From: Alphaproteobacteria bacterium
GTDB taxonomy: Bacteria > Pseudomonadota > Alphaproteobacteria > Rhizobiales > JAKIUO01
Assembly: GCA_024280895.1 (NCBI GenBank)
Contig: JAJRPI010000001.1
Coordinates: 1-35,083 of the forward strand
Direction: 5' to 3'
DNA: 35,083 nt
Part shown: positions 4,470 through 11,112 of the stretch, one piece after another
Numbering within the stretch: position 1 is the first letter of the stretch
Layout of the letters: each line of letters begins with the position of its first letter
Translations under genes and position numbers: made by a program
Notes under the pieces: generated by a model
Seen by the model: the letters and a program-made list of their open reading frames with translations, nothing else
Told to the model about the DNA's origin: nothing
Database searches by the model: none

Positions 4470-5312
4470 ATGTTTACGATCAACCCCTTCTCCGAGCTTT
4501 CGGAGTTAATACCTGTCTATGTCCAGCAGGGCTACGTCATCGCTATGGCGATTCTTGTTATCGGCGGTACTGTGATTGATACGCTTCACAAGAAAAGTGC
4601 CAAGTGGTTCTTTATAAATGCCAAGGACGCGCAGAAAAGAGCCACCCGGAAAATTGAGAGTTCCGAAAAACTGGTGATTGCAGCGCAGACAGGCATGAGT
4701 GAAGTTTTGACTTCCTCCGAGTTCTCGAGCAAGCGACGCAGACTTTCTCATCTGTTTAGCATGTATGGTTTTGTGCTTTTCGTAGCCACAACCGCCATCA
4801 TGATATTCCTCTTTCCGGGCGCTAAAGCTTCGACGCCAGCGATCTGGCCAATGCTTTGGCATGTGGGAGCGCTGATGCTTGCATTTGGCGGCTACTGGTT
4901 CTGGTTCTTTATCAGGGTCGACGTCGCGGCTGAAGGTCGTACATGGTACCATCTTGTTAAAGCTGATATGTTTATCCTCTCCCTTTTGGCGATGGTAACC
5001 TTCGGGCTGATCTGGTCCTACATGCAAGCAACGAATGTTGCTGGATGGGAACAGTTGTTCCTTGGCCTGTTTATCCTGGCGTCTACGATCTTGTTTGGTG
5101 GAGTGCTCTGGTCGAAATTCGCCCATATGTTCTTCAAACCTGCTGCGGCTTATCAAAAACGCATTACCAAAGCGGATGGATCCGCTGAGAATTTGCCAAC
5201 GATTACCCGTGATGAAACCAAGCAACAAGAGCGCCATTCTATGGAACTGTTGAAAGATGCCCCTATGGATATGGGTCTTGGTATCAAGCGCGAACGGCCA
5301 AATCACTACTAG
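4470..5312 (+). CDS. aprM: AprM-type membrane protein of adenylylsulfate reductase
   Basis: This 280-residue membrane protein lies directly upstream of aprB and aprA. Five hydrophobic segments are visible at about residues 22-39, 98-116, 127-149, 165-184 and 196-216, with a basic cytoplasmic stretch (about 40-95) after the first and a polar tail after the last. Histidines at 131, 161 and 219 lie in or near membrane segments and could bind heme, but this is inference. From knowledge of sulfur oxidisers, aprM occurs with aprBA where qmoABC is absent and is thought to anchor the enzyme and pass electrons between AprB and the quinone pool. A ribosome binding site AGAAGGAA lies about 13 bases before the ATG. 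The stop is TAG. The 64-bp gap to aprB holds only a ribosome binding site. Confidence 0.85.
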   Translation: MFTINPFSELSELIPVYVQQGYVIAMAILVIGGTVIDTLHKKSAKWFFINAKDAQKRATRKIESSEKLVIAAQTGMSEVLTSSEFSSKRRRLSHLFSMYGFVLFVATTAIMIFLFPGAKASTPAIWPMLWHVGALMLAFGGYWFWFFIRVDVAAEGRTWYHLVKADMFILSLLAMVTFGLIWSYMQATNVAGWEQLFLGLFILASTILFGGVLWSKFAHMFFKPAAAYQKRITKADGSAENLPTITRDETKQQERHSMELLKDAPMDMGLGIKRERPNHY

Positions 5313-5376: not shown

Positions 5377-5856
5377 ATGCCTACTTTCGTTTATATGACT
5401 AGATGTGATGGCTGCGGTCATTGCGTCGACATCTGCCCGTCGGATATTATGCATATCGACAAGACTTATCGTCGTGCATACAATATTGAACCTAACATGT
5501 GTTGGGAGTGTTACTCCTGCGTCAAGGCCTGCCCACATAACGCCATTGACGTTCGCGGATATGCCGACTTTGCCCCACTGGGTAGTAGCGTACGCGTTCT
5601 TCGCGATGAAGAAAAAGGCACAATCGCCTGGAAGATCACGTTCAGAGATGGCCGCGTGAAAGAATTCCTGTCACCCATTACAACAAAGCCTTGGGGAAAA
5701 TACATTCCTCAGCTTGCTGACGCTACTCCGCCAAGCAAGGATATGCGAGATGGCGAGTTGCTTTTTAATGAACCCAAATATATCCGCCTGGATGAAGGTG
5801 GACTACATACTTTGGAGTCAAACGGACTGACATTGAAGGAAGGCGTGTACTACTAA
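5377..5856 (+). CDS. aprB: Adenylylsulfate reductase beta subunit (2x[4Fe-4S])
   Basis: The 159-residue iron-sulfur subunit shows two ferredoxin-type clusters. Cluster one uses C10, C13, C16 and C20 (CDGCGHCVDICP); cluster two uses C42, C45, C48 and C52 (CWECYSCVKACP). The tryptophan after C42 is a conserved feature of AprB. The C-terminal 100 residues form the beta-sheet and tail that wrap AprA. Length matches the family, usually 145-165 residues. In sulfur-oxidising bacteria the complex runs in the direction sulfite + AMP to APS, releasing two electrons that pass through AprB to the membrane protein. The ribosome binding site AAGGAAA precedes the ATG by about seven bases. The stop TAA overlaps the aprA ATG (TAATG), so the two subunits are coupled. 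Cytoplasmic. Confidence 0.97.
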   Translation: MPTFVYMTRCDGCGHCVDICPSDIMHIDKTYRRAYNIEPNMCWECYSCVKACPHNAIDVRGYADFAPLGSSVRVLRDEEKGTIAWKITFRDGRVKEFLSPITTKPWGKYIPQLADATPPSKDMRDGELLFNEPKYIRLDEGGLHTLESNGLTLKEGVYY

Positions 5857-7775
5857 TGGCTTATAAAACGATTATTGAAGACGATATTGATATCCTTGTC
5901 GCCGGTGCCGGCCTTGGTGGCACAGGTGCCGCCTGGGAAGCCAGGTTCTGGGGCAAAGACAAGAAAATCGTCATTGCTGAAAAAGCAAATATGGACCGCT
6001 CTGGTGCGGTTGCTCAGGGTCTTTATGCGATCAACTGCTATATGGGCACACGCTGGGGTGAGAACAACCCGGAAGACCATGTACGCTACGCTCGTATGGA
6101 TCTCATGGGTATGGTTCGCGAAGATCTGGCCTTTGATATGGCTCGCCATGTCGATAGTGCCGTGCATCAGTTCGAAGAATGGGGCCTGCCCATCATGAAA
6201 GACCCTGATACGGGTAACTACATGCGTGAAGGTCGTTGGCAGATCATGATTCATGGTGAGTCATATAAGCCGATTGTTGCTGAAGCTGCGAAAAAATCAG
6301 CTGACAAGGTTTTCAACCGGATCTGTGTCACTCATCTTCTTATGGATGATGCCCAGGAAGACCGCGTTGCGGGTGCTGTGGGCTTTAATGTCCGCACCGG
6401 TGATTATCACGTTTTCAAATCCAAAACCGTTATTTGTGGCGCTGGTGGTGCTTCCAATATCTTTAAGCCACGTTCTGTTGGTGAGGGTGCTGGTCGCGTC
6501 TGGTATGCTCCTTGGTCTTCAGGCTCAGCTTATGGTCTTATGATTGGCGCTGGCGCCAAGATGACCCAGATGGAAAACCGTATCGTGCTTGCACGTTTTA
6601 AAGACGGTTATGGTCCTGTTGGGGCTTACTTCCTGCATCTCAAAACTTATACTCAAAACTGTAATGGTGAAGAGTATGAATCCAAATGGTTCCCTGAACT
6701 CTCTAAAATGGTCGGTAAGGCTTACCTGGATACGGAAGGGCAGCATGTATCGCATAAGCCGATTCCAACCTGCTTGCGTAACCATGCCTTTATCAATGAA
6801 GTAGCGGCTGGTCGTGGTCCTATCCACATGATCACCATGCATTCATTCCAGGATCCGCATCTGGAGGAAGTCGGCTGGGAAAACTTCCTGGGCATGACTG
6901 TTGGTCAGGCTGTATTGTGGGCCGCGACAGATGTCGATCCCAAATATGAAAACCCTGAACTGACGACATCAGAGCCTTATGTCATGGGATCCCATGCGAC
7001 AGGTTGTGGCGGTTGGGCCAGTGGACCAGAAGATCTTTCACCACCAGAATATTTCTGGGGTTATAACCGCATGATGACTGTCCATGGTCTGTTTGGTGCT
7101 GGTGATGCTGTTGGTGGTACACCGCATGCGTTTTCATCTGGATCATTTACCGAAGGTCGCCTTGCTGCCAAAGCTGCTTGCAAATATATCGACGATGGTA
7201 AAGGAGACGGTATTGTTGTCTCCGATGAGCAGATCAGAAATCGCGGCGAACAGATCTTCCATCCAATGGAACATTACAAACTCTATCGCAACGAAATCGT
7301 CGCTGGTGACGTTAACCCACACTATATTAATCCAAGGCAGGGTCTCGACCGTTTGCAAAAATGTATGGATGAATATTGTGGTGGCGTGACCGTCAACTAC
7401 ATGACCAACGAGAAGCTGCTGAACATTGGCCTCAAAAAAATGAAGATCATGGAAGAAGACTTTGAAAGTCTGGCTGCCAAGGATGTTCATGAGTTGCTGC
7501 GTGTTTGGGAATTGAAGCATCGCTTCTTGACTTCTGAATCTGTCTTCCAGCATACGCTGTTCCGTAAAGAAACACGTTGGCCTGGCTATTATTATCGTGG
7601 CGACCACATGAAGTTGGACGATGATAATTGGCATGTTCTGACTGTTTCTCGTCGTGACCCTAAAACTGGCGAATACACGATGGAAAAAGCGCCTTTGTAT
7701 CATCTCGTCGGTGAAAAAGACGAAATGGAAGATAAAGGTCTCAAAGACATCAAGGCAAAAGAAGCTAAAAAGTAG
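5856..7775 (+). CDS. aprA: Adenylylsulfate reductase alpha subunit (FAD)
   Basis: The 639-residue flavoprotein carries the FAD-binding motif GAGLGGTGAAWEA at residues 17-29, the RSGAVAQGLYAIN segment typical of AprA, and the conserved GSHATGCGGWASGPED block around residues 375-390 that holds probable active-site residues. The C-terminal helical region with the ETRWPGYYYRGDHM motif is also typical. It belongs to the fumarate reductase/succinate dehydrogenase flavoprotein superfamily and catalyses the reversible conversion of sulfite and AMP to APS. Synteny with aprM rather than qmoABC, in a proteobacterial context, favours the oxidative direction. The gene uses many GGT, CGT and GCT codons, unlike most neighbours, which suggests high expression or a different origin. 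A ribosome binding site GAAGGAAGG lies inside the end of aprB. The stop is TAG, followed by two tandem hairpins. Confidence 0.97.
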   Translation: MAYKTIIEDDIDILVAGAGLGGTGAAWEARFWGKDKKIVIAEKANMDRSGAVAQGLYAINCYMGTRWGENNPEDHVRYARMDLMGMVREDLAFDMARHVDSAVHQFEEWGLPIMKDPDTGNYMREGRWQIMIHGESYKPIVAEAAKKSADKVFNRICVTHLLMDDAQEDRVAGAVGFNVRTGDYHVFKSKTVICGAGGASNIFKPRSVGEGAGRVWYAPWSSGSAYGLMIGAGAKMTQMENRIVLARFKDGYGPVGAYFLHLKTYTQNCNGEEYESKWFPELSKMVGKAYLDTEGQHVSHKPIPTCLRNHAFINEVAAGRGPIHMITMHSFQDPHLEEVGWENFLGMTVGQAVLWAATDVDPKYENPELTTSEPYVMGSHATGCGGWASGPEDLSPPEYFWGYNRMMTVHGLFGAGDAVGGTPHAFSSGSFTEGRLAAKAACKYIDDGKGDGIVVSDEQIRNRGEQIFHPMEHYKLYRNEIVAGDVNPHYINPRQGLDRLQKCMDEYCGGVTVNYMTNEKLLNIGLKKMKIMEEDFESLAAKDVHELLRVWELKHRFLTSESVFQHTLFRKETRWPGYYYRGDHMKLDDDNWHVLTVSRRDPKTGEYTMEKAPLYHLVGEKDEMEDKGLKDIKAKEAKK

Positions 7776-7782
7776 AACATTA

Positions 7783-7812
7783 CAAACAGACGTTTTTGAA
7801 AGTGTCTGTTTG
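7783..7812 (+). repeat. Hairpin 1 after aprA
   Basis: CAAACAGAC (7783-7791) pairs perfectly with GTCTGTTTG (7804-7812) around a 12-base loop. It begins eight bases after the aprA stop codon. No T-run follows directly; an A-run and a second hairpin come next. It is probably an mRNA-stabilising or attenuating structure that separates the abundant aprBA message from the downstream genes. Confidence 0.6.
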
Positions 7813-7819
7813 AACAAAA

Positions 7820-7852
7820 AAGAAGATCAACATTTAACATGTTGATCTTCTT
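7820..7852 (+). terminator. Hairpin 2 after aprA (14-bp perfect stem), possible partial terminator
   Basis: AAGAAGATCAACAT (7820-7833) pairs perfectly with ATGTTGATCTTCTT (7839-7852) around a five-base loop. The 3' side is T-rich only within the stem (CTTCTT) and then continues GATAATG, so termination would be weak in the forward direction. On the reverse strand the stem is followed by a T-run (complement of the A-run before 7820), which would make a better terminator for antisense transcription. Partial read-through into the downstream genes is the likely outcome. Confidence 0.55.
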
Positions 7853-7934
7853 GATAATGTGACAAATCCAGTCTTTTGCACCAGGGAGCGCCAATATTGA
7901 GGCTCCTTGGTGTAACTGCAATAAAGAGTCTGAG

Positions 7935-8285
7935 ATGAATATTCTTGATAAAACCGATGATGAGATAACTGAGATCGCACATCCCTTGTGGAATGATCTT
8001 GTCAAGCAGTCAAACGCAGGTAAATACGGAGATTTCGTCAAGAATTTTTCGCGTGACCTGGCGCATGGCCTTGATCAGGTTGAGGTGGGTAAACAGTTCG
8101 CAAAAAGTGAGCTTACCAGGAGCCTGTCAGAAGAGATGGACTATATCGGCCTTATTCGTCGTGGCCAGCATGTTACGGTTCTTTACCGGCAACGCAGCAC
8201 CAAGAAAGAAGGCGAATGGCTTGGCAGACTGGTCCTGGGCTATGAAGAAGATGATATCAAGATTTTCGGGGCTTCCATTTTCTAA
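7935..8285 (+). CDS. Uncharacterised apr-linked 116-aa protein, probably NTF2-like fold
   Basis: I do not recognise a named family. The protein has 116 residues, no signal peptide, no membrane segment and no cysteine. Its pattern is an N-terminal pair of helices (LWNDLVKQSNAGKYGDFVKN) followed by alternating beta strands (YIGLIRRGQHVTVLYRQ, WLGRLVLGYEEDDIKIFGA). That order, with the phrase 'G-x-Y-x-x-F-x-x-x-F-S', resembles NTF2-like/SnoaL small alpha-beta cone proteins; this is inferred by eye. It lies 159 bp after aprA behind two hairpins, in the same direction, with a modest ribosome binding site (AAAGAG, 7922-7927). An accessory role in Apr assembly, FAD loading or regulation is possible but not shown. 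Confidence 0.8.
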   Translation: MNILDKTDDEITEIAHPLWNDLVKQSNAGKYGDFVKNFSRDLAHGLDQVEVGKQFAKSELTRSLSEEMDYIGLIRRGQHVTVLYRQRSTKKEGEWLGRLVLGYEEDDIKIFGASIF

Positions 8286-8304
8286 ACGCTCCCAAGTCGA
8301 GTAT

Positions 8305-8318
8305 TTTCGACGTCGAAA
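8305..8318. promoter_or_regulatory. 14-bp perfect palindrome, candidate operator or small hairpin
   Basis: TTTCGACGTCGAAA is perfectly self-complementary and lies in the 117-bp gap between the 116-aa and 52-aa genes, 20 bases after the first stop. A nearby GTCGA (8296-8300) can alternatively pair with TCGAC (8307-8311). No T-tract follows. It has the form of a dimeric regulator site, but no known consensus is matched. Confidence 0.35.
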
Positions 8319-8402
8319 GTCAATGAAGTTAAGATGTCGGGATTGTTTTAAGCAGCATGTAACTTGCAGCGGCTATCCTGGCTAACATGAAAGAGGTGAT
8401 TT

Positions 8403-8561
8403 ATGGCTAAAGTAGATCCTAAAGCAAAAGTTCCTGAAGGCAAGACCCGCTTCTTGACAACTCGTCAGATGAAGCCAAATGAAAAGGGTTATGTAGGGTA
8501 TGATCTTATCTGGGAACCCTTCCAGAAAGAACAAAAATACCAAACACCAAAAAAACCATAA
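8403..8561 (+). CDS. Small uncharacterised apr-linked protein (52 aa)
   Basis: An ATG with a strong ribosome binding site (AGAGGTG, 8392-8398, four bases before the ATG) opens a 52-codon frame ending TAA. The product begins MAKVDPKAKVPEGKTRFL, has a central GYVGYDLIWEPF stretch and ends in a lysine- and proline-rich tail. It is basic, soluble, without cysteines, signal peptide or membrane segment. I do not know a family for it. It is in the same direction as and between two other apr-linked genes, and the quality of the ribosome binding site argues that it is translated. It could be a small partner of AprBA, but the function is unknown. A 13-bp hairpin follows the stop. Confidence 0.7.
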   Translation: MAKVDPKAKVPEGKTRFLTTRQMKPNEKGYVGYDLIWEPFQKEQKYQTPKKP

Positions 8562-8576
8562 GTAAGCTTGATAAGA

Positions 8577-8612
8577 TGTGGCCACGCGATCTTTTTAGTT
8601 CGTGTGGCCACA
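8577..8612 (+). repeat. Hairpin after the 52-aa gene
   Basis: TGTGGCCAC (8577-8585) pairs with GTGGCCACA (8604-8612); the stem extends inward through a G-T wobble and CGA/TCG to 13 pairs with a ten-base loop containing TTTTT. Each outer arm is itself nearly palindromic (GTGGCCAC). No T-run follows, so it is more likely a processing or stability element, or a dyad binding site, than a terminator. Confidence 0.55.
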
Positions 8613-8658
8613 ATAACTCCTTCGATATCGTCCCGATGGACCTAGTTGCGAATTTGAT

Positions 8659-9171
8659 ATGAGCGAAACGATACAAGACAACAAGTTTGTCGAACTGACC
8701 TTCAAGGTGGTCGATCAAAAAACCGGCCATGTTCTCAGCGAGGTTGAATTTCCGCTGGGCTATGTGCACGGCCATAATGACGTCTTGTTGCCAGCCATCC
8801 TCACCGAGCTGGTAGGCAAGTCCGCAGGCGATATCATTGACGTGCCAATTGATTGCAATAAGATCTATGGCCCCAGAGATGAGTCATTGGTTTTTACTGA
8901 TCGCATTGAGAATGTTCCCAAGGAATTCCATGAAATCGGCGCAACGATTGTCACGCAAAACGAAAAGGGCGAGTCCAAGAATTTTATCGTCACGAGGATG
9001 GATGACAAGTCATTGACGGTGGATGGCAATAACCCGCTTTGCGGCAGAGAAGCCGTTTTCACACTGGAAATATTGACGGTGCGTGAGCCAACCGACGAAG
9101 AATTCGAAGCAGGTGGTGCCATCATTGAACCGCCAGATGTCAAAGGTGCCCACAAGGTACCTGTTCAATAA
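8659..9171 (+). CDS. SlyD-like FKBP-type peptidyl-prolyl isomerase/chaperone
   Basis: The 170-residue protein reads as a SlyD-type FKBP: an N-terminal FKBP half (residues about 9-70, with LGYVHGHNDVLLPAIL and GKSAGDIIDVPI), an inserted flap region (about 75-125), and the returning FKBP strand with DGNNPLCGREAVFTLEI (about 131-147), which matches the DGNHPLAG hallmark of SlyD. The histidine-rich metal-binding tail of E. coli SlyD is absent; the tail ends GAHKVPVQ. No signal peptide, so cytoplasmic. It closes the apr-direction gene run and is followed by an intrinsic terminator, consistent with its being the last gene of that transcript. A plausible job is folding or cofactor insertion for AprBA, by inference. 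The ribosome binding site is poor. Confidence 0.85.
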   Translation: MSETIQDNKFVELTFKVVDQKTGHVLSEVEFPLGYVHGHNDVLLPAILTELVGKSAGDIIDVPIDCNKIYGPRDESLVFTDRIENVPKEFHEIGATIVTQNEKGESKNFIVTRMDDKSLTVDGNNPLCGREAVFTLEILTVREPTDEEFEAGGAIIEPPDVKGAHKVPVQ

Positions 9172-9201
9172 GCTCCCCTTTGAAATTGTCTTAAACCTGT
9201 T

Positions 9202-9231
9202 CTGGCTCCCTTGTGGGGCCAGTTTCGTTTT
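9202..9231 (+). terminator. Intrinsic terminator after the SlyD-like gene
   Basis: CTGGCTCC (9202-9209) pairs with GGGGCCAG (9215-9222), with one G-T wobble and a five-base loop, followed by TTTCGTTTT. This is a standard rho-independent terminator and likely marks the end of the apr-region transcript. Confidence 0.8.
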
Positions 9232-9235
9232 GCCT

Positions 9236-9271
9236 AGAGCGTTTTGAGTTCGAGTGAACGCAAAGTGCTCT
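9236..9271. repeat. 36-bp near-palindrome between convergent genes
   Basis: AGAGC (9236-9240) pairs with GCTCT (9267-9271), then GTTTTG with CAAAGT through two wobble pairs, and the loop holds a further GTTC-GAGT-GAAC hairpin. It lies between the convergent FKBP and ABC exporter genes and can act from either side. The AGAGCGTTTT start resembles short intergenic palindromes common in alphaproteobacteria; copies elsewhere were not seen in this window. Confidence 0.4.
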
Positions 9272-9273
9272 GG

Positions 9274-11112
9274 TCAAACTTCAACTTCTTCGGCAAGGAA
9301 GCCACCGGACTGGCGGCTCCATAGCTGGGCGTAAAGACCTCGCGCTTTAATAAGTTCGTCATGGGTGCCCTGTTCGATAATCGCGCCCTGGTCCATGACG
9401 ACAAGCCGGTCGAGGGAAGAGATGGTCGACAGCCGGTGGGCGATGGCGATGACGGTTTTTCCTTCCATCAAAGCGTAGAGATTTTCCTGAATGGCCGCCT
9501 CGACCTCGCTATCGAGCGCGGAAGTTGCTTCATCCAGCAACAAGATCGGCGCGTCTTTCAGGAACATGCGGGCAATGGCGATGCGTTGGCGTTGACCGCC
9601 CGACAGCTTGACGCCGCGCTCGCCGACCAGCACGTCATAGTCCTTATTGCCCTTCTTGTCCTCTAGTGACGAAATAAATTCATGAGCATTGGCGCGCTTG
9701 GCCGCCGTGATGATCTGTTTGCGGGTTGCCTTGGCAAAGCCATAAGCGATATTGTCGGCGATTGATCGGTGCAGCAGGGACGTATCTTGCGAAACCACAC
9801 CGATTTGCGCTCGCAAGCGATCCTGCTTCAGATTTGCAATGTCCTGACCATCGATGAGAATACGCCCCCCTTCGAGGTCGTAAAGGCGCAGTAAAATATT
9901 CATCAGCGTTGTTTTGCCAGACCCAGAGCGCCCGACAATGCCCACTTTTTCCCCCGGCTTGATCTGCAAGGAAAGCCGTTCAATGACGCCGCTTTTTTTA
10001 CCATAGTGAAATTTGATATTGTCAAAATGGATGCCTCCACTGTGCACATCAAGTTCGCCCGCATCGGGACGATCCTGAACATCGCGTTTTTGCGCAATGG
10101 TTGACATGCTATCGCGGGCAATACCGATATTCTCGAACAGGCCCCACATCTCCCACATGATCCAGTGAGACATGCCAAAAAACTTCAACACCAGCGTGGC
10201 GCTGACGGCAACCGCGCCAACAGTGCCGGCACCTGTTAGCCAAAGCCACAGGGCAATCCAGCTCACAGAAAAAAGCAAAAGCGCATTGATGATTGAAAGG
10301 CAAAGCTCCAGCACAGTGAGATAGCGCAATATCTGATGATTGTCTTTCAGCATGACCTGCATGGCGTCGCGGGCATAAAGCTCTTCTTTGCCAGTGTGGG
10401 CAAACAGTTTGACGGTCATGATATTGGTATAGCTGTCGACGATGCGCCCGGTCAGCAGCGAGCGGCTGTCCGCAAATTTTTTGGATTCAGACGAGAGCTT
10501 TGGCAACAAAACACGCAGCATGATCACATAGCACAAAAGCCAGATGAGAAATGGCAGCACCAGCCAAAGATTGAAGGAGCCCACAAGGATGATAGCGCCA
10601 AGGAAATAGATGCTGACATAGACCAGCACATCCAGCAGTTTGAGAACAATTTCGCGAATGGCGCCAGCTGATTGCATGACCTTGGTGGCGATGCGTCCGG
10701 CAAAATCATCTTGATAAAATGTGTAGCTTTGCCCCAGCAAATAGCGATGTCCAAGCCAACGCGTGATCATTTGCGAATTGGCAAGAACGCTCTGGCGGAC
10801 AATCAGCGAGTGGATAAAACTAAAGGTGGGCACGGCGACCAGAATGATTGCCGCCATGGCGATCAGTTTTCCCTGCTCAAGGGCTAGAAAGGTCTGCTTG
10901 TCAGCATCCGAAAGCCAGTCGACGAGATTGCCGAGAAATCCATAAAGAATGACTTCAAGGATCGATATGATGGCCGACAAGGTCGAGATGACCGCAAAAA
11001 ACGGCCAGATATCCTTGGTGTAATGCCAGCAATAAGCGGCCAGCGTATCTGGCGGTTGACCAGAGGGCTCATTGGGGAAGGGGTCTATGAGTTTTTCAAA
11101 AAACGAGAACAT
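9274..11112 (-). CDS. ABC exporter, fused membrane and ATPase domains
   Basis: The 612-residue protein has an N-terminal ABC type-1 exporter membrane domain (six hydrophobic segments between about residues 35 and 320) and a C-terminal ATPase domain with Walker A GRSGSGKTT (about 392-400), a Q-loop VVSQDTSLL, signature LSGGQRQR, Walker B ILLLDEATSALDS and the switch histidine in AIAHRLST. This is the MsbA/lipid-drug exporter architecture, working as a homodimer in the inner membrane. The substrate cannot be told from sequence. The gene stands alone; a strong hairpin and the interrupted HIT gene lie upstream. It converges on the apr-linked FKBP gene, separated by a terminator. Length and motifs are intact. 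Confidence 0.93.
   Translation of the reverse strand: MFSFFEKLIDPFPNEPSGQPPDTLAAYCWHYTKDIWPFFAVISTLSAIISILEVILYGFLGNLVDWLSDADKQTFLALEQGKLIAMAAIILVAVPTFSFIHSLIVRQSVLANSQMITRWLGHRYLLGQSYTFYQDDFAGRIATKVMQSAGAIREIVLKLLDVLVYVSIYFLGAIILVGSFNLWLVLPFLIWLLCYVIMLRVLLPKLSSESKKFADSRSLLTGRIVDSYTNIMTVKLFAHTGKEELYARDAMQVMLKDNHQILRYLTVLELCLSIINALLLFSVSWIALWLWLTGAGTVGAVAVSATLVLKFFGMSHWIMWEMWGLFENIGIARDSMSTIAQKRDVQDRPDAGELDVHSGGIHFDNIKFHYGKKSGVIERLSLQIKPGEKVGIVGRSGSGKTTLMNILLRLYDLEGGRILIDGQDIANLKQDRLRAQIGVVSQDTSLLHRSIADNIAYGFAKATRKQIITAAKRANAHEFISSLEDKKGNKDYDVLVGERGVKLSGGQRQRIAIARMFLKDAPILLLDEATSALDSEVEAAIQENLYALMEGKTVIAIAHRLSTISSLDRLVVMDQGAIIEQGTHDELIKARGLYAQLWSRQSGGFLAEEVEV

Follow-up and report, generated by a model that had tools for sequence, protein, structure and literature searches.

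Introduction

Adenosine 5'-phosphosulfate (APS) reductase converts sulfite into APS in many sulfur oxidisers. The AprM-type enzyme, known as 'SOB Apr lineage I' (SOB, sulfur-oxidising bacteria; PMC2211403, PMC3779200), pairs the subunits AprB and AprA with a membrane protein, AprM, and in the accessible parts of these papers its redox partner is called unknown, or AprM is merely proposed as the point of electron entry. AprM itself is said to resemble no known conserved domain (accessible part of PMC3779200). Here we examine a 35,083-nucleotide stretch of an alphaproteobacterial genome (order Rhizobiales; GCA_024280895.1, contig JAJRPI010000001.1, positions 1 to 35,083), which as a whole we call the window. 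In it, aprMBA is followed on the same strand by genes for a 116-residue protein (p116), a 52-residue protein (p52) and a SlyD-like FKBP. We find that this trio is a genuine, widespread companion set of one sub-lineage of the AprM-type enzyme, real, widely conserved and apparently undescribed, and we favour a role for it in the assembly and quality control of that enzyme.

The genes downstream of apr go unmentioned in the accessible parts of PMC3779200 and PMC2211403, whose main texts contain none of the words 'FKBP', 'isomerase' or 'downstream', and they are not described in the accessible part of PMC6504805, which mentions aprMBA. The open-access PMC literature yielded no relevant paper joining apr with FKBP, SlyD or peptidylprolyl isomerase. 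The purple sulfur bacterium genes for comparison are those of Allochromatium vinosum, where Alvin_1118 is sat and Alvin_1119-1121 are aprMBA (accessible parts of PMC3779200 and PMC3368242). This organism also possesses a different route for oxidising sulfite. The gene after aprMBA, Alvin_1122, is listed as a 'conserved hypothetical protein' that falls together with dsrA and dsrB on pyrite relative to sulfide (log2 fold changes -2.73, -4.72 and -4.45; PMC11267869, Table 1); Alvin_1118 and Alvin_1121 do not appear in the main text of that paper. Going by gene position only, we infer that Alvin_1122 is p116.

Results

Three conserved genes follow aprMBA

The draft source genome (3.36 Mb, 96 contigs, 98% complete) contains a single match each for the p116, p52 and FKBP profiles. 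The features of the locus are as follows.

4470 to 5312, forward strand: aprM, encoding the membrane partner of APS reductase, a name resting on position and conservation
5377 to 5856, forward strand: aprB, iron-sulfur (Fe-S) beta subunit, TIGR02060
5856 to 7775, forward strand: aprA, flavin adenine dinucleotide (FAD) alpha subunit, TIGR02061
7783 to 7812, forward strand: hairpin 1 of a tandem element 3' of aprA, from folding and alignment across loci
7820 to 7852, forward strand: hairpin 2 of the tandem element, 14-bp stem, terminator- or attenuator-like, with the recurring stem GA[TC]CAACA...TGTTG[AG]TC
7935 to 8285, forward strand: p116, predicted 116-residue NTF2-like protein, from open reading frame (ORF), alignment and fold prediction
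8392 to 8399, forward strand: Shine-Dalgarno sequence of p52, read directly
8403 to 8561, forward strand: p52, 52-residue conserved protein without a family match
8577 to 8612, forward strand: 13-bp hairpin between p52 and the FKBP gene, from folding
8659 to 9171, forward strand: apr-linked SlyD-like FKBP with a degenerate prolyl-isomerase site
9202 to 9222, forward strand: terminator-like hairpin 3' of the FKBP gene

The locus belongs to SOB Apr lineage I, with aprM directly 5' of aprBA and both subunits above their NCBIfam equivalog cut-offs (AprB, TIGR02060, 201.1 against 135.65 bits; AprA, TIGR02061, 1052.6 against 641.75 bits); AprA also matches the Pfam families PF00890 and PF02910. The aprM gene is a membrane-type ORF 65 nucleotides (nt) 5' of aprB that is conserved in relatives, and its name rests on position, conservation and the published place 5' of aprBA, all library matches being below cut-off. 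Among these are weak NCBIfam matches of AprM residues 24-226 to QmoC (25.0 bits, cut-off 300) and of residues 23-236 to TcuB (32.9 bits, cut-off 524); AprM and the membrane part of QmoC may share common ancestry.

An initial sequence-only reading had placed the 116-residue, 52-residue and FKBP genes on one strand behind aprMBA, with a ribosome binding site for the 52-residue gene. The three ORFs lie exactly where it put them and all encode proteins conserved in alignments with relatives, and the strong Shine-Dalgarno sequence AGAGGTGA (8392-8399) stands 3 nt from the ATG of p52.

The trio is linked to apr across proteobacteria

The p116 profile, first aligned from 14 loci, was scanned against one genome per species (84,980 species) and found 424 relatives. 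Locus counts refer to the best 80 of these 424 by similarity rank, taken from named genomes; some of the 80 come from the same genomes as the draws described below (for example L048/G025), so the samples are not independent. The 80 loci span alpha-, beta- and gammaproteobacteria and Magnetococcales, with Thioalkalivibrio, Thiobacillus, Halochromatium, Achromatium, Thiosymbion, Rubrivivax and Polaromonas among the record titles.

Upstream of p116 lies aprA in 79 of the 80 loci; in the exception, L057, only 274 bases precede p116 and no aprA is found in those. The FKBP gene is present in 79 (partial in L037, while L039 stops short of it) and p52 in 73. A chance neighbourhood is rejected on these counts, and the view that the trio is tied to apr holds. 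The FKBP gene follows p116 closely (at most 60 nt in 68 of 78 loci, median 20 nt), and the median distance between aprA and p116 is 128 nt (74 loci; maximum 1452). The linkage persists through changes of order and strand. FKBP followed by p52 on the same strand is found in 61 of 71 loci, the p116-p52-FKBP order of the window is a minority arrangement (3/71), and p52 lies on the opposite strand in 7/71 and can sit kilobases away.

Only one apr sub-lineage carries the trio

Among 199 genomes of the window's order (the order draw), 30 have AprA above cut-off and fall into three groups by identity to the window AprA; the labels Ia and Ib are our own. Group Ia (15 genomes) has AprA of about 80-98% identity with aprM present, Ib (7 genomes) has about 65-68% identity, again with aprM, and the third group (8 genomes) has about 45-49% identity and no aprM in the locus. 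In this draw p116 occurs in 17 genomes, namely 15/15 of Ia together with G128 and G036, where AprA fragments lie right beside it, and in none of the other 182. Two genomes of uncertain lineage, with AprA fragments only, are among those where p116 was not found (G057, G144). The p52 gene occurs in 16 of the 199 and was not found in G048, which is 84% complete.

A draw across the phylum places p116 in 13 of 398 genomes, 11 times in Ia apr loci and twice as distant relatives away from apr; in G295 the contig begins inside p116 and continues into FKBP and p52. The two distant relatives, in G338 (66.4 bits) and G249 (40.0 bits), have no apr within 1.5 kb on either side. Distant p116 relatives are isolated at L123:1492-1830 and L124:1489-1854, where the genome lacks a strong AprA match; they hint that the NTF2-like family is wider.

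In a gammaproteobacterial draw, AprA was found at E 1e-60 or better in 71 of 239 genomes. All 24 with AprA of at least 1041 bits carry p116, as do G757, G855, G751, G802 and G947; a borderline match in G921 (18 bits) was not counted, and p116 was absent from all five alphaproteobacterial genomes added to this search. FKBP comes directly after p116 in 23 of the 24. The p52 gene is present in 20 of the 24, and in G831, G906 and G809 it lies on a different contig from aprA. The FKBP profile matches 25/25 trio genomes, always with at least 226.2 bits, and the next-best FKBP in the genomes tested scores 81.5; it finds this branch in 0/17 genomes with only other apr lineages, none of which exceeds 52.0 bits.

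The sequence-only reading had held that absence of the trio beside aprBA in other aprM genomes would speak against a module. Such absence is seen in Ib. A tie to AprM in general is rejected, since the Ib genomes carry aprM without p116 and, where tested, without the FKBP branch; the proposal is narrowed to Ia rather than ended. Three loci (L053, L080 and L108) hold an AprM-less apr set within 10 kb of a lineage-Ia set, and in each the trio follows the Ia set.

Two genomes of 1.1 Mb each, with AprA 70% identical (G757 and G855), keep p116 right behind aprA; its start codon abuts the aprA stop codon in G757 and is separated from it by 34 nt in G855. Both encode a SlyD-like protein within about 4 kb of the cluster, in G757 on the opposite strand. 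These proteins group in a tree with the apr-linked FKBPs and not with the SlyD paralogues tested (support 100/96), a placement made unsure by long branches. In neither genome was p52 found. Across all these samples p116 is the most constant member of the trio and p52 the least constant.

The trio might simply travel at the end of an apr cassette, moving horizontally with it and having no functional tie to the enzyme. Lateral movement of apr genes is known (accessible part of PMC2211403) and the terminal position of the trio would suit such a passenger. We disfavour this explanation as very improbable, however, given how well the genes are conserved from alpha-, beta- and gammaproteobacteria to Magnetococcales, the retention in 1.1-Mb genomes and a linkage that outlasts rearrangement of order and strand.

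The trio proteins: a predicted NTF2-like fold, a small conserved protein and an FKBP with a degenerate site

Protein alignments comprised the window and 76 of the 80 loci for p116, 65 of 71 ORFs for p52 and 65 of 78 ORFs for FKBP, mostly near-duplicates having been dropped. Over 63 complete sets, mean pairwise identity is 88.1% for AprA, 82.9% for AprB, 72.7% for p116, 64.7% for FKBP, 64.1% for p52 and 60.2% for AprM. Divergence is correlated between the proteins (r 0.39 to 0.76), an unspecific signal, as the aprA-aprB pair itself gives 0.69.

The confident model of p116 from its 77-row alignment (predicted local distance difference test, pLDDT, 86.1; predicted template modelling score, pTM, 0.80) has helices and a four-stranded sheet. 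Among the 50 top-scoring VIA-align rows (Z 9.6-11.2) are NTF2 itself and further NTF2-like and cystatin-like proteins, along with designed binders and PBP2a; the best natural protein is the DUF3887 structure 4hyz_A (Z 10.6, 2.3 A over 102 residues), and the best Foldseek match, at E 3.4e-3, is to an NTF2-containing bi-domain. We conclude that p116 has a predicted NTF2/cystatin-like alpha+beta fold, in agreement with the label first given to it. No Pfam or NCBIfam family matches p116 at its cut-off. With E up to 1, matches of its 77 members fall into 12 Pfam families, none of them NTF2-like (best E 0.011). A PDB sequence search found two entries for p116, both with E of 1 or higher, and none for p52.

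Relatives of p52 are conserved proteins of 52-54 residues that end in Y-x-T-P-K-x-P in 69/71 cases and have no Pfam or NCBIfam match; the model is too weak for interpretation (pLDDT 74.8, pTM 0.35).

The window FKBP has only sub-cut-off NCBIfam matches, to SlyD (PRK10737, 59.7 bits against a cut-off of 174) and PRK15095. Its family aligns to SlyD residues 4-154 at 2.3e-22, across the FKBP domain and the insert-domain region, and the SlyD-like label is thus sound. At the position of SlyD Asp24 all 66 rows have a gap (its exact place depends on the alignment), and I42, G44 and E46 are kept in 0/66; these four residues we take to be part of the prolyl-isomerase site. The Y68 position holds Y in 51 rows and F in 15, and F132 is kept in all 66. 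SlyD has a His-rich, metal-binding C-terminal tail, and no His-rich stretch occurs in the window FKBP or in 12 aligned relatives. Pfam FKBP_C gives no match for the window protein at E 10 and matches 1/66 members at E 0.12. An ordinary SlyD isomerase is rejected on the loss of these residues. The apr-linked FKBP is, by its sequence, a SlyD branch of its own in which the prolyl-isomerase site is degenerate; of the foldase first proposed here, the SlyD-like FKBP stands and ordinary isomerase activity is unlikely.

Structured RNA separates aprA from p116

Two tandem hairpins lie between aprA and p116 (7783-7812 and 7820-7852; folding z -7.1), and the 13-bp hairpin between p52 and FKBP (8577-8612) gives z -5.0 in the window; the sequence-only reading had noted neither. 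A survey of all 70 aprA-p116 stretches of at least 60 nt found z below -2 in 57 (median -4.26). The corresponding numbers are 4 of 79 for stretches downstream of FKBP and 8 of 72 for coding controls. The terminator proposed after FKBP is there as a hairpin with a T-rich tail at 9202-9222, but the enclosing 69-nt stretch folds barely better than shuffles (z -1.0), and the region holds 7 terminator-like sites against 5.4 expected.

Of 72 intergenic stretches, 48 were aligned, the exclusion by eye of 24 that were short, truncated or unalignable favouring structure; the structure itself was derived from the window sequence, a choice that gives it an advantage over slid versions. With these biases, changes on both sides occur in 22/24 pairs. 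The covariation score reaches 0.391, compared with 0.230 in shuffles and no more than 0.176 with slid partners. Further pair types are less striking (57 against 51.1; 16/500 shuffles as high). The stem of the second hairpin recurs closely in several proteobacterial classes and often leads into a T tract. No Rfam family reaches its gathering score in 7600-9300. The hairpins 3' of aprA may represent a terminator or attenuator preceded by a second, possibly mRNA-stabilising hairpin. Because these hairpins are strong, transcription of p116-FKBP may be uncoupled from apr, and, given also the hairpin 3' of p52, one continuous aprMBA-p116-p52-FKBP transcript is not evident from the sequence. The hairpins make independent transcription, which the sequence-only reading had counted among the grounds against a module, a realistic possibility.

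AprM and AprB termini differ between lineages

The C-terminal ~34 residues of the window AprM (about 5208-5309) form the lineage-Ia tail, ...RHSMELLKDAPMDMGLGIKRERPNHY. Measured from the MFFKP motif, the Ia tail has at least 52 residues in 68/68 sequences and is longer than that of Ib; MGLGI occurs near the end in 57/68, and the AprB C-terminus also differs between Ia and Ib. The AprM of G572 ends in FGLGIKRELPRHY, of GLGIKRE type, in a genome without p116, and G757 and G855 have a short tail yet carry p116. Hence presence of the trio cannot be read from the end motif by itself; the longer insert does follow it, within one clade. The AprM tail end as a proven docking site is rejected, as G572 shares the end motif without p116.

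These termini bear on the main rival to an assembly module, in which the trio would be permanent accessory subunits of membrane-bound AprMBA that dock AprBA to the long AprM tail and shape electron transfer to the membrane. Strict co-occurrence with the Ia sub-lineage, the longer Ia tail and different AprB end, and a loss of isomerase residues such as a structural part might undergo would all fit. The hairpins between aprA and p116, however, argue against equal amounts, the tail difference separates clades only (with G572 as a counterexample for the end motif), and p52 can be inverted or kilobases away. We rank this explanation second to assembly and consider it unlikely.

Other neighbours of the cluster

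A sat homologue is found in 28/80 loci and a calcineurin-like phosphoesterase gene, at variable positions, in 21/80 (flanks up to 10 kb per side; the latter for example in L086, L093, L058, L078, L095, L107 and L083). Such neighbours would suit a trio acting beside the enzyme in the sulfite-to-sulfate pathway, through hand-over of APS to ATP sulfurylase, removal of side products or sensing and regulation, rather than in assembly; NTF2-like folds, as is generally known, often bind small ligands. Yet sat and the phosphoesterase gene are much more variable in position and strand than p116 and FKBP are, and Ib and AprM-less apr run the same reaction, as far as known, without the trio, making a pathway role improbable.

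Additionally, a Metallophos_2 phosphoesterase gene lies directly 3' of p116 in both 1.1-Mb genomes (L242:10146-10667, L243:11350-11856), and a MazG-like nucleotide pyrophosphohydrolase gene is near the apr cluster in 10/80 loci (for example L035, L040, L042, L036, L041 and L051). Ten loci, all gammaproteobacterial by record title or of lower groups thereof, have a gene of about 370 residues with weak, sub-cut-off TPR matches on the same strand 3' of FKBP (L047, L059, L060, L062, L075, L079, L097, L101, L102 and L110). A plasmid search with aprA gave one short, distant match.

Discussion

Conservation, linkage to apr, lineage restriction, predicted folds, loss of isomerase residues and conserved RNA hairpins form the firm ground from which we infer a function for the trio. 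Our preferred explanation, to which we assign a probability of about 0.5, is that p116 and the apr-linked FKBP, frequently joined by p52, constitute a dedicated assembly and quality-control module for one AprMBA sub-lineage. In such a module the FKBP would act as a holding chaperone, not a prolyl isomerase, binding unfolded or partly folded segments of AprM, AprB or AprA through its SlyD-type insert domain. The p116 protein would be a client-specific, NTF2-like pocket protein that keeps hold of AprB/AprA, or offers these subunits to AprM, while flavin, Fe-S clusters and lineage-specific tails are put in place, and p52 a short, mostly extended partner. The hairpins 3' of aprA would allow stronger expression of the enzyme genes than of their helpers.

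Several observations count for an assembly module. The structured RNA between aprA and p116 (57/70 stretches, against 4/79 after FKBP) fits helpers that are produced at a lower level than the enzyme. The p116 protein is more conserved than AprM and is kept behind aprA in two 1.1-Mb genomes, and the FKBP retains its insert region while losing its isomerase residues in every row. Furthermore, the FKBP branch is present in all 25 trio genomes and in none of the 17 with other apr lineages, the linkage of aprA, FKBP and p52 is maintained, the p116 profile follows lineage, and the trio accompanies the Ia set where two apr sets lie close together.

Other observations weigh against it. Ib has AprM and AprBA without p116 and, where tested, the FKBP branch, so AprMBA as such does not need the trio. 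In G906, p116 is present and no FKBP is found in the 20 kb read of a 26-kb apr contig, and p52 is missing from several Ia genomes (4/24 in the gammaproteobacterial draw). Codon usage, a weak proxy for expression, gives median ranks among background ORFs (a crude ORF-call background) of 0.88 for aprB, 0.80 for aprM, 0.79 for FKBP, 0.71 for p52 and 0.63 for p116. Finally, the association rests on one or two clades and so on few independent evolutionary events.

A bolder picture, which we hold to be doubtful and a shade less probable than permanent subunits, is that p116, an isomerase-dead FKBP-fold protein and p52 assemble into a complex not described before. It would belong to membrane-bound AprMBA in this one sub-lineage, or gate it, perhaps via the long AprM tail, and its level would be set apart from that of the enzyme by the conserved tandem-hairpin RNA 3' of aprA, which has no Rfam family.

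The companion genes follow the enzyme in every well-covered lineage-Ia locus examined. If the trio is needed, studies of AprMBA that leave these genes out may address an incomplete system. The three genes offer named targets for investigating how AprMBA is built and attached.

Comparison with known systems

The enzyme that the trio accompanies is the AprM-type APS reductase of SOB Apr lineage I (PMC2211403, PMC3779200). The individual proteins have recognisable relatives. SlyD, the FKBP-type chaperone and prolyl isomerase of E. coli, resembles the apr-linked FKBP over the FKBP and insert domains; the latter differs in scoring below the SlyD cut-off, in its lost site residues, in having no His-rich tail and in forming its own branch beside apr. 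With the NTF2-like and cystatin-like proteins (DUF3887, NTF2, ketosteroid isomerase and SnoaL-like proteins), p116 shares a predicted fold, but at no more than 16% identity to any listed structural match.

Two further systems are comparable in arrangement or role. QmoD is encoded by a small gene of Desulfovibrio 3' of qmoABC and, like the trio, ends the operon of an electron partner of APS reductase; it is likened by gene position alone and belongs to the Qmo system, not to AprM. SdhE/SdhAF2, the flavin assembly factor of succinate dehydrogenase, is a small soluble helper of a flavoprotein from the superfamily of AprA, and the likeness is one of role, not of sequence or fold. A point of difference is that the flavin of AprA is held non-covalently.

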